Source: Pseudomonadota bacterium (GTDB taxonomy: Bacteria; Pseudomonadota; Gammaproteobacteria; Ga0077536). From it: DNA of 38,736 nucleotides. The notes under the pieces were generated by a model. It was not told where the DNA came from, did no database searches, and saw only the letters and a list, made by a program, of their open reading frames with translations. This document shows positions 3,345-6,849 of this stretch, in pieces. A program made the position numbers and the translations under genes. Every line of letters begins with the position of its first letter. Position 1 is the first letter of the stretch. The DNA lies in NCBI GenBank assembly GCA_027618655.1, contig JAQCEL010000011.1, positions 1 to 38,736 on the forward strand, written 5' to 3'.

Positions 3345-4277
3345 ATGTTCAAACGTTTAGCAGAAGGAATTTCGCGCACGCGCGACAGTCTCCTCGGTGG
3401 ACTGAAAGCCGTGCTCGGAAAGAAAACCCGCATCGATGACACAACGTTAGAGACACTGGAATCAACCTTGCTAACCGCGGATTGTGGCGTTGAAACGACG
3501 GCACGAATTGTTCATTTGATAAAATCACGCGGGCTGGACAATGATCAATCGTTGCTCAGTCTTGTTACCAACGAGATGACTGAACTGTTGCGCGAGGTTG
3601 AAGCACCGTTGGTACCGAGTAGGCAAACAGCTGGGCCCTTTATTATTCTCGTTGTTGGCGTAAACGGCGCAGGCAAGACGACTACGATTGCAAAGATGGG
3701 TAGGCGTTTTAAAACTGCGGGTCTCAGTGTCATGTTTGCCGCTGGAGACACGTTTCGCGCCGCTGCAGTGGAGCAATTGTGCATTTGGGGCGAACGTCTA
3801 GACATTCCTGTTATTAAGCAAGGCAGCGGCGCTGATCCTGCATCAGTGATCTTCGATGCATGTACGGCCGCGACCTCGAGAGGTGTCGATGTCCTCATTG
3901 CTGATACAGCGGGCAGGTTGCAGACCCAAACGAATCTGATGGCGGAACTCGAAAAGGTAAAGCGTGTGGTAAGAAAATTCGATGCCAACGCCCCGCACGA
4001 GACGATGCTCATTGTCGACGCGACGATGGGACAAAATGCGCTTTCGCAAGCGAAACTATTTCACGAACAAATTGAGCTTGATTCGATTTCGTTAACGAAA
4101 CTCGATGGTACGGCGAAGGGTGGAATTTTATTCGCTCTCGTTAGTGCCTTGAAATTACCGATTCGGTTTATAGGCGTCGGTGAAGCATTCGAAGATTTAC
4201 AGGCTTTTTCGGCAGAGGAATTTGCTCGAGCAATGCTTAGCGACTCTTCGCTGGAAACGAAAGCAGCCGAGCAATGA
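3345..4277 (+). CDS. ftsY: Signal recognition particle receptor FtsY
   Basis: GTPase that docks ribosome-SRP complexes at the membrane for co-translational insertion of membrane proteins. The 310 residues cover the NG domain: four-helix N domain (about 1-95), P-loop GVNGAGKTTT (105-114), DTFRAAA (135-141), DTAGRLQT (187-194) and TKLDGTAKGG (251-260), then the closing FIGVGEAFEDLQAF. The long acidic A domain of the E. coli protein is absent, as in many short FtsY proteins. The N-terminal MFKRLAEGISRTRDSL helix is the usual membrane-contact helix. The stop overlaps the ftsE start by four bases (ATGA), so ftsY-ftsE are translationally coupled. It is transcribed divergently from the M16 peptidases. 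Confidence 0.97.
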   Translation: MFKRLAEGISRTRDSLLGGLKAVLGKKTRIDDTTLETLESTLLTADCGVETTARIVHLIKSRGLDNDQSLLSLVTNEMTELLREVEAPLVPSRQTAGPFIILVVGVNGAGKTTTIAKMGRRFKTAGLSVMFAAGDTFRAAAVEQLCIWGERLDIPVIKQGSGADPASVIFDACTAATSRGVDVLIADTAGRLQTQTNLMAELEKVKRVVRKFDANAPHETMLIVDATMGQNALSQAKLFHEQIELDSISLTKLDGTAKGGILFALVSALKLPIRFIGVGEAFEDLQAFSAEEFARAMLSDSSLETKAAEQ

Positions 4278-4933
4278 TTCGCTTTGATGGCGTTTATAAA
4301 ACCTACCGAAATCGACATGAAGCGCTAAGGAACGTTTCATTCGACATTGACAAAGGCGAATTCGTGTTTCTAACCGGGCGCTCAGGTGCGGGGAAGAGCA
4401 CCTTGCTGCGTTTAATCGCTTTAATGGAACATGCGTCGCGCGGTGAAGTGCTTGTTGGTGGGCGAAATCTACAACGACTTCCGCGTCGGGAGATCCCCTA
4501 TTACCGGCGCCAAGTCGGTTTAATATTTCAAGAGCATCGTTTATTGCCTGATAGGTCGGTGTTCGAAAATGTCTCGTTGCCGTTAATGGTCGCCGGCTAT
4601 CGCACCTCAGAGACTCAGAAAAGAGTCCGCGCGGCGTTAGATAAGGTTGGACTATTAGGCAAAGAGGCGAGTTCTCCACGAACATTGTCGGCTGGAGAGC
4701 AGCAGCGGGTCGGAATCGCTCGCGCCGTAGTCAACCGACCGCAAATCTTGCTCGCGGACGAACCCACAGGAAATTTAGATATTGGCTTGTCGTTAGATAT
4801 CTTGAATTTGTTTACCCAATTCAACGACGTTGGTGTCACCGTGTTAATAGCAACGCACAATCTGGACTTGCTCCAACAGCGGAAACATCGTCGGCTGGCG
4901 CTCGTGTCCGGTGAGCTGCGCGCCTCGGCGTGA
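4274..4933 (+). CDS. ftsE: Cell-division ABC transporter ATP-binding protein FtsE
   Basis: ATPase partner of FtsX. In other bacteria FtsEX sits at the septum and switches on periplasmic murein hydrolases through EnvC-type activators. The 219 residues are a complete ABC domain: Walker A GRSGAGKST (35-43), Q-loop FQEHRLLP (about 85-92), signature LSAGEQQR (138-145) and Walker B LLADEPTGNLD (159-169), followed by the switch histidine in ATHNLDLL. The length matches the family (about 220). The start overlaps the end of ftsY by 4 bases. The ATPase looks intact even though the ftsX that follows is broken, which is hard to reconcile with a working FtsEX complex if the sequence is correct. Confidence 0.97.
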   Translation: MIRFDGVYKTYRNRHEALRNVSFDIDKGEFVFLTGRSGAGKSTLLRLIALMEHASRGEVLVGGRNLQRLPRREIPYYRRQVGLIFQEHRLLPDRSVFENVSLPLMVAGYRTSETQKRVRAALDKVGLLGKEASSPRTLSAGEQQRVGIARAVVNRPQILLADEPTGNLDIGLSLDILNLFTQFNDVGVTVLIATHNLDLLQQRKHRRLALVSGELRASA

Positions 4934-4991
4934 TCTGAATTTAAGTTTGTCGTCATGGCGCAAGCGATCCAGAACAACAATAGGCGACAAA

Positions 4992-5829
4992 ATGGGAGCG
5001 CTATCGCTAGCTAGCTGGCTGCGTCAGCATCAAGCTTCCGTAGTCGAGGCCTGGGTTAATTTTAGTGCTGACCGCGCGGCGAACTTGGTGAGCATATTAG
5101 TGATTAGTGTAACGTTCGCTATGCCACTGCTACTTCACGTCGCGCATCACAATGTGACTGCAGTGCTTGGACAATTAGGTTCTAGTTCGCAAGCAACACT
5201 GTTTATGGATCGCGACGCGACACTTGAGGAGGCGAACAAACTCGCAAACCGGTTGCGTTCGGATCAGCGGCTTGGTGAGATCACGCTAATTGATAAGGCA
5301 TCTGCGCTTGCAGAGTTCTCGGAAATATCCGGTTTGCAGACAGCGATCGGGTCACTCCCGACAAACCCACTGCCGCATAGCTTGGTGATATTGGGTACGG
5401 AAATTGAAGGCAATTTCCGTACTAGTGTCACGTTGCGTTGCAGTTTTTACGTTCATTCTCGGCCTTGGGATTGTACTGATCACAGCGAACACGATTAAAG
5501 AGAGCATTTTCAGTAGGCGAGCAGAAATCGAAGTATTCAGATTATGCGGCGCAACGGATGGGTTTGTACGGCGACCGCTTTTATATCGCGGCGCACTTCA
5601 AGGTCTGGCCGGAGCTTTAGTCGCCATTATCGTTGTCTTTTGCGCGATTGCGGTGCTCAAGTTTCCAGCCGAAACCCTTCGAAATATTTACGACTCTGAA
5701 TTGCAACTGTTGAATCTGCCAAGCTTTTCCATTGTGTCAGCGTTATTCCTTGGCGCCGCTCTCGGCTGGGCGGGGGCGTGGCACGCGGTGTCATTACATA
5801 TGCGCCGATTAGACGTGCTTGAGTTATAA
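4992..5829 (+). pseudogene. ftsX: Cell-division protein FtsX, broken by internal deletion and frameshift
   Basis: FtsX is the membrane subunit that couples FtsE ATP hydrolysis to septal peptidoglycan hydrolases. The first frame, from ATG 4992 (or GTG 4911), gives the cytoplasmic N-terminus, the first membrane helix (NLVSILVISVTFAMPLLL) and half of the periplasmic domain up to LPTNPLPHSLVILG near 5395. It then runs into unrelated residues and stops at 5498. The rest of FtsX lies in another frame from about 5425 to 5829: VAVFTFILGLGIVLITANTI, the conserved EIEVFRLCGATDGFVRRP, and two more membrane helices, ending RRLDVLEL. Compared with E. coli FtsX, about 40 residues of the late periplasmic domain are missing between the two parts. 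The break falls at a perfect hairpin (5395-5422). It is either a real lesion or an assembly fault. Confidence 0.85.
5395..5422. repeat. Perfect 11-bp inverted repeat at the ftsX break point
   Basis: GTACGGAAATT (5395-5405), a 6-base loop GAAGGC, then AATTTCCGTAC (5412-5422). The arms are exact reverse complements. The hairpin sits exactly where homology to FtsX jumps frame and about 40 codons disappear. Inverted repeats of this kind can arise by template switching during replication, or can mislead assembly. A regulatory role inside ftsX is less likely. Confidence 0.9.
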
Positions 5830-5903
5830 GTCCGACGGTCCTGGATGGCTGTGCTGAAAACCGCATTAAAGCCACCCTCACGCTTCCTGAACTTAATTCG
5901 TTA

Positions 5904-5930
5904 TTAGCACTCTCACTTGTCGAGTGCTAA
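5904..5930 (+). promoter_or_regulatory. CIRCE element (HrcA operator) upstream of rpoH
   Basis: TTAGCACTC, nine bases, GAGTGCTAA: an exact match to the CIRCE consensus bound by the heat-shock repressor HrcA. It ends 40 bases before the rpoH start codon. A plausible sigma70 promoter overlaps it: TTAGCA (5904-5909), 18 bases, TAATAT (5928-5933). Bound repressor would then block RNA polymerase. AAAGGAG at 5954-5960 is the rpoH ribosome site. The operator match is direct observation; the promoter and the control of rpoH by HrcA are inferences. hrcA itself is not in the window. Confidence 0.93.
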
Positions 5931-5970
5931 TATTGGCTCATAACCGGAATTTGAAAGGAGCACCAAACTC

Positions 5971-6849
5971 ATGACAACTGCGCTCGGACTGCAAATCCCA
6001 CAGCCAATCGGATCTTTGGAGGCATACATCGGGGCCGTAAATCTCGTACCGATGCTGACTTTGGAAGAAGAACAAGCACTCGCGAATCAATTTCGTGAAA
6101 GCGGCGATCTTGATGCTGCGCGGCGCTTAGTCATGTCGCATTTACGCTTTGTAGTAAGAGTCGCACGGGGCTACTCCGGCTACGGTCTTGCACAAGGTGA
6201 CCTCATTCAAGAAGGCAACATTGGCCTGATGAAAGCAGTGAAGCGCTTCGACCCGACCGTCGGGGTTAGATTAGTCTCGTTCGCGGTTCATTGGGTACGC
6301 GCCGAAATGCACGAGTTCATTCTGCGAAACTGGCGCATCGTCAAAGTCGCAACAACCAAATCGCAACGCAAGTTATTCTTCAATCTTCGCAGTTCAAAGA
6401 AACGTCTAGGCTGGATGAATCTCGAGGAAGTTAACGCCATCGCAAGCGACCTTAATGTCGATCCAAAAGAAGTTCTGCTCATGGAGGAACGTTTAAGCGC
6501 CCGCGATGCTTCATTCGATATCAATCCAGCTGACGACGATGAACACGTTGCCCCTGTCGCGTATTTTGCCGATTCGAGATTCGAGCCGTCTCAACAACTG
6601 GAGGCGTTGGAAACCGGTGCTGACGAGAAAGATCAATTACTCAAGGCGATTGGTAAACTCGATGAACGTAGCCGGGACATAGTCACGAGGCGTTGGTTAT
6701 CGGAACCAAAAGATACGCTTCAGACACTTGCTGAAAAATACTCCGTGTCTGCGGAGCGGATCCGTCAAATCGAAAAAAGTGCTTTTGCGTGCTTACGCGG
6801 AGAATTAGCCGATCCGCTGCTGTTATCCGACACAAATACGGGCGTTTAA
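5971..6849 (+). CDS. rpoH: Heat-shock sigma factor RpoH (sigma-32)
   Basis: Alternative sigma factor that directs RNA polymerase to heat-shock promoters. The 292 residues show region 2 (DLIQEGNIGLMKAVKRFDP, about 77-95, and FAVHWVRAEMHEFILRN), the RpoH-box QRKLFFNLR (132-140) that separates RpoH from other sigma factors, and a region 4 helix-turn-helix near the end (LQTLAEKYSVSAERIRQIEKSAF). The length is normal for the family (about 285-290). AAAGGAG lies 10 bases before the ATG. A perfect CIRCE lies upstream, suggesting repression by HrcA in addition to the protein-level control known for RpoH. It follows ftsX by 141 bases, as in Pseudomonas and E. coli, but has its own promoter region. It converges with a membrane protein gene whose stop lies 3 bases away. 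Confidence 0.98.
   Translation: MTTALGLQIPQPIGSLEAYIGAVNLVPMLTLEEEQALANQFRESGDLDAARRLVMSHLRFVVRVARGYSGYGLAQGDLIQEGNIGLMKAVKRFDPTVGVRLVSFAVHWVRAEMHEFILRNWRIVKVATTKSQRKLFFNLRSSKKRLGWMNLEEVNAIASDLNVDPKEVLLMEERLSARDASFDINPADDDEHVAPVAYFADSRFEPSQQLEALETGADEKDQLLKAIGKLDERSRDIVTRRWLSEPKDTLQTLAEKYSVSAERIRQIEKSAFACLRGELADPLLLSDTNTGV

Follow-up and report, generated by a model that had tools for sequence, protein, structure and literature searches.

A predicted HrcA operator overlies putative sigma-70 and sigma-E promoters of rpoH in most hrcA-bearing members of a bacterial class

Heat-shock control is taught either as positive, by RpoH in E. coli, or as negative, by HrcA in Bacillus, and bacteria with both regulators are usually presented as having parallel inputs on groESL. 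In the B. subtilis model, HrcA is inactivated through titration of GroEL. RpoH of E. coli is controlled largely post-transcriptionally, and the P3-type promoter of its gene is sigma-E-dependent. A CIRCE operator before rpoH was predicted earlier in Geobacter sulfurreducens, at -51 (Rodionov et al., 2004; PMC545781, Table 8), and by that tabulated prediction the CIRCE-rpoH arrangement as such is not new. In full-text searches of the open literature, this was the only paper with a CIRCE at rpoH.

The rpoH locus described here lies in a stretch of 38,736 nucleotides, analysed in full and referred to as the window. Its features are as follows.

3345-5829, + strand: ftsY-ftsE-ftsX, upstream of rpoH (profile matches), a possible read-through source of rpoH mRNA.
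5888-5894, + strand: putative sigma-E-type -35, TGAACTT (consensus GGAACTT), the best placement in the 300 nt before rpoH and in phase with relatives.
5904-5930, + strand: CIRCE operator (predicted HrcA site), with left arm 5904-5912, 9-nt spacer 5913-5921 and right arm 5922-5930.
5904-5909, + strand: putative sigma-70-type -35, TTAGCA, within the left arm (class-wide TTRGCA).
5911-5915, + strand: putative sigma-E-type -10, TCTCA (consensus TCTAA), straddling left arm and spacer, 16 nt after its -35.
5928-5933, + strand: putative sigma-70-type -10, TAATAT, beginning in the right arm and running 3 nt beyond it.
5955-5960, + strand: Shine-Dalgarno sequence of rpoH, AAGGAG (from the sequence).
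5971-6849, + strand: rpoH, heat-shock sigma factor sigma-32, 292 aa (TIGR02392, NF005143, sigma-70 regions 2 and 4).

The operator, TTAGCACTC-TCACTTGTC-GAGTGCTAA, has no mismatch to the CIRCE consensus, in agreement with the perfect 9-9-9 repeat of the original prediction, and it is the sole match with at most 3 mismatches in the window. Shuffled sequences were expected to give 0.02 such matches each, and a chance match at rpoH was ruled out on these figures. A gap of 40 nt (5931-5970) separates the operator from the ATG at 5971. The downstream gene, likewise named beforehand as rpoH, was identified by the TIGR02392 equivalog (390 bits, cut-off 323) and NF005143 (408 bits); sigma regions 2 and 4 were detected in the translation, which contains the RpoH-box motif QRKLFFNLR. 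The order ftsY-ftsE-ftsX then rpoH is also that of E. coli. In the window ftsX is present as two overlapping frames, 4911-5498 (extracellular domain) and 5404-5829 (permease domain), and both parts are in a single frame in a relative of the same genus (L008); the cause of the split is a genuine frameshift or a misassembly.

The repressor gene presupposed by the original prediction was found elsewhere in the source assembly (4.36 Mb, 94.5% complete). A single intact hrcA (TIGR00331, 324 bits, cut-off 197), with both the DNA-binding and the C-terminal domain (PF01628 and PF03444), precedes grpE and dnaK, and an orphan operator lacking its repressor was thereby ruled out. Further CIRCE copies are also present: the genome has three groESL operons (contigs C159, C160 and C230; L003, L005 and L004), each with a CIRCE-like site 86-88 nt before groES, of decreasing quality (1, 2 and 3 mismatches). 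The rpoH CIRCE is the only perfect copy in the genome. Within the window's family all rpoH CIRCEs seen have at most 3 mismatches and most are perfect, and the groESL CIRCEs examined all have 1-3; from these counts, rpoH may hold the tightest HrcA operator. The groESL CIRCEs of the family (L189-L198) share the form TTAGCACTA-N9-GAGTGCTAA, in which the next bases, CTC, restore CTC one step later; this pattern is absent from the rpoH CIRCEs of the same genomes. Autoregulation of hrcA in the source genome was unsupported, since the hrcA locus has nothing closer to a CIRCE than a match with 5 mismatches. A site with 3 mismatches near an alcohol dehydrogenase gene (contig C238) was set aside as being at the level of the control patterns.

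RpoH was located in 96 relatives, the upstream DNA was scanned for CIRCE (at most 3 mismatches, within 400 nt upstream of rpoH), and those genomes were searched for hrcA. Among the 87 relatives with a readable rpoH, the operator was found in 58/61 genomes with hrcA versus 8/26 without; seven of these eight hrcA-less genomes are less than 90% complete. When only genomes at least 90% complete were counted, the figures were 51/54 versus 1/18 (p = 1e-12), and with one such genome per family, for families outside the window's own, they were 29/32 versus 1/18 (p = 2e-9), an association that shows functional linkage and neither its direction nor its strength, since operator and hrcA could drift away together. 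A second sample from the class gave 5/5 versus 0/20. The operator was also found at the examined rpoH copy in family f76, of another class of the phylum, in 5/6 genomes with hrcA versus 0/5 without, and it was almost wholly absent from the remaining hrcA-bearing genomes examined outside the class, where one match with 4 mismatches was seen. Perfect copies precede rpoH in, among others, Dyella ginsengisoli, Dyella acidisoli and a Ketobacter sp.; no CIRCE was found before rpoH in the records examined for Halomonas, Legionella and Psychromonas. Within the class, the comparison of rpoH upstream regions bore out a conserved operator nearly wherever hrcA is present. The original prediction held CIRCE to be normal at groESL and dnaK and was unsure how far its placement at rpoH extends; it is not the oddity of one genome, being the rule among hrcA-bearing members of the class.

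An rpoH CIRCE that is a relic or a chance match, on which no regulator acts, is scarcely credible against the intact hrcA in the genome, the absence of any mismatch, the conservation of the site and its loss together with hrcA. Such a loss is seen within genus g88, where the palindrome is broken in G182, a member that lacks hrcA, and the operator is present in its hrcA-bearing sister G186. Both retain the promoter elements, which in G182 are GGAACTT, TCCAA and TAAGAT.

The arms hardly vary among 113 unique rpoH sites, and bases have drifted at most positions of the spacer. The spacer is 9 nt long in 116 sites versus 1 for all other lengths combined, and the mirror pattern was found in none. 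The conserved arms, the fixed spacer and the contrast between G182 and G186 fit a protein operator that would be retained only while its repressor exists. The repeat could instead act as an RNA hairpin in sigma-E or read-through ftsYEX-rpoH transcripts and affect the stability or translation of rpoH mRNA; the palindrome is foldable, and 12 symmetric double changes at arm position 7 preserve pairing. This was judged very improbable, as the repeat is upstream of the start predicted for sigma-70, the arm letters themselves are conserved beyond what pairing demands, the presence of the operator tracks hrcA, and no RNA family in Rfam, thermometers included, matched the rpoH leader.

Two variations on the operator were noted. 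The rpoH operators of Xanthomonadaceae (L097, L099, L107, L109, L111, L120, L141, L143 and L173) share the symmetric variant TTAGCAGTC-N9-GACTGCTAA, and other CIRCE-like sites in those genomes have mixed C/G at the variant position, a pattern that suggests a shifted HrcA specificity. Next to the rpoH operator of L071, L083 and L091 is an additional half-site or near copy of the CIRCE, suggesting tandem operators at rpoH in some lineages.

The operator is predicted to be phase-locked over two promoters, one of sigma-70 type and, in most lineages, one of sigma-E type. The first, TTAGCA-18-TAATAT, is present as originally described and has 8/12 matches to the consensus (4+4); it falls below the 9-of-12 threshold of a generic sigma-70 scan, which did not call it. 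Its class-wide form in the alignment is TTRGCA-18-TAaaAT, in which each hexamer overlaps a CIRCE arm, and the conservation of TTRGCA is to be read with the operator's own demand for the same letters. Positions 28-30, outside the operator, are conserved as A/A-or-C/T in the 113 unique sites and complete the TAaaAT -10; TA...T is in phase in 32/36 families versus 1/23 groESL CIRCEs.

The idea of a single promoter overlapping the CIRCE did not hold, since most lineages have a putative sigma-E-type promoter that overlaps the operator as well. In the window TGAACTT-N16-TCTCA has 2/12 mismatches, and the next best placement in the 300 nt before rpoH has 4. In the class alignment GGAACT holds a fixed phase, 15 nt ahead of the operator, and TAA is preferred at spacer positions 1-3, which gives GGAACTT-N16-TCtaA. 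With at most 1 mismatch, GGAACT occurs at this offset in 63/113 sites and at any other upstream offset in at most 7; with at most 2 mismatches, 82/116 sites have it at either of two fixed offsets, versus 6.7% by shuffling. The -35 and -10 halves co-occur (58/14/10/31; p = 6e-9, p-values here ignoring the shared ancestry of the sites), and the -35 is in phase in 20/36 families. Neither half is in phase in the 23 groESL CIRCEs used as controls. The source genome encodes rpoE (TIGR02939 equivalog, 299 bits, cut-off 236), before which a sigma-E site was sought as a local yardstick; only a weak GAAACTA-N16-TCTAT with 3 mismatches was found, so the sigma-E reading draws on the relatives. In several lineages that lack the CIRCE (Halomonas, Nitrococcus and others) the sigma-E promoter often persists on its own, and the operator therefore appears to have been overlaid on an ordinary rpoH promoter set.

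The best explanation, held with high confidence, is that an HrcA operator lies in the rpoH promoter region and represses rpoH transcription. The original proposal that HrcA controls rpoH finds strong support in the class-wide co-occurrence of operator and hrcA and in conserved arms around a drifting spacer; as far as comparison of genomes can indicate, the HrcA and RpoH circuits are very probably connected in a large group of bacteria. Without stress, HrcA dimers on the CIRCE would mask the sigma-70 -35, the first bases of the sigma-70 -10 and the sigma-E -10, and initiation at rpoH by either polymerase would stay low. Heat or protein-folding stress would inactivate HrcA, via GroEL titration or via its own heat sensitivity, the latter having been reported for Campylobacter (PMC8533110). 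Derepressed rpoH would then raise chaperones, including groESL, itself a putative direct target of HrcA, and more GroEL would reactivate HrcA and close the loop. With groESL also under HrcA, the circuit would be a coherent feed-forward loop with negative feedback.

The HrcA effect could be modest, as control of E. coli RpoH acts largely after transcription. A reading that we consider possible but doubtful builds on that known E. coli control: HrcA binds, the level of RpoH is determined chiefly by its translation and proteolysis, and the operator trims basal expression with little effect on heat shock. Read-through from ftsYEX just upstream would be compatible with it. Against it, a near-perfect operator has been kept in tens of families, which suggests a selected effect, and in the window's family it is the rpoH sites, not those of groESL, that are mostly perfect. 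Repression by HrcA with a marked effect may be carried further, to a class-wide master gate in which the 27-bp operator inside two overlapping promoters lets sigma-70 or sigma-E drive RpoH synthesis only when GroEL, and with it cytoplasmic folding capacity, is short; RpoH and HrcA would form the feed-forward loop on groESL, and the layer would have been lost with hrcA in enterics, Halomonas and Legionella. To this full version we give an even chance.

In the predicted circuit, most members of the class with hrcA have the sigma factor itself subordinate to a repressor. Should this be confirmed, the E. coli circuit would be a derived, simplified state, and envelope stress would feed RpoH only under an HrcA veto, through the overlap with the sigma-E promoter. 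The link between HrcA and rpoH is testable in culturable species, e.g. Dyella and Ketobacter. A study by Permina and Gelfand in 2003 reportedly includes in its scope groups studied here, and class-wide conservation may already be in print. No report of that conservation or of the merger with sigma-E was found in the open literature searched, the coverage of which excluded that study, and HrcA is unmentioned in Leyn 2016.

Geobacter sulfurreducens resembles the window's genome in having a perfect CIRCE before rpoH and a CIRCE at groESL (PMC545781). There the prediction concerns a single deltaproteobacterium in which hrcA-grpE-dnaK-dnaJ also has a CIRCE, unlike the hrcA locus of the window's genome, which has no match better than 5 mismatches; an overlap with sigma-E is not described in the tabulated part of that report. 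The class I heat-shock genes groESL and dnaK share with rpoH the 9-9-9 operator and the repressor family, but the target here is a sigma factor gene and the operator overlies both -35 and -10. The groESL CIRCEs of the same genomes follow a CCnATA-like upstream element, with neither GGAACT nor TCTAA in phase. With the E. coli P3 type, the window shares the GGAACTT-N16-TCnnA arrangement before rpoH, whereas its putative sigma-E -10 is merged with the predicted HrcA operator.
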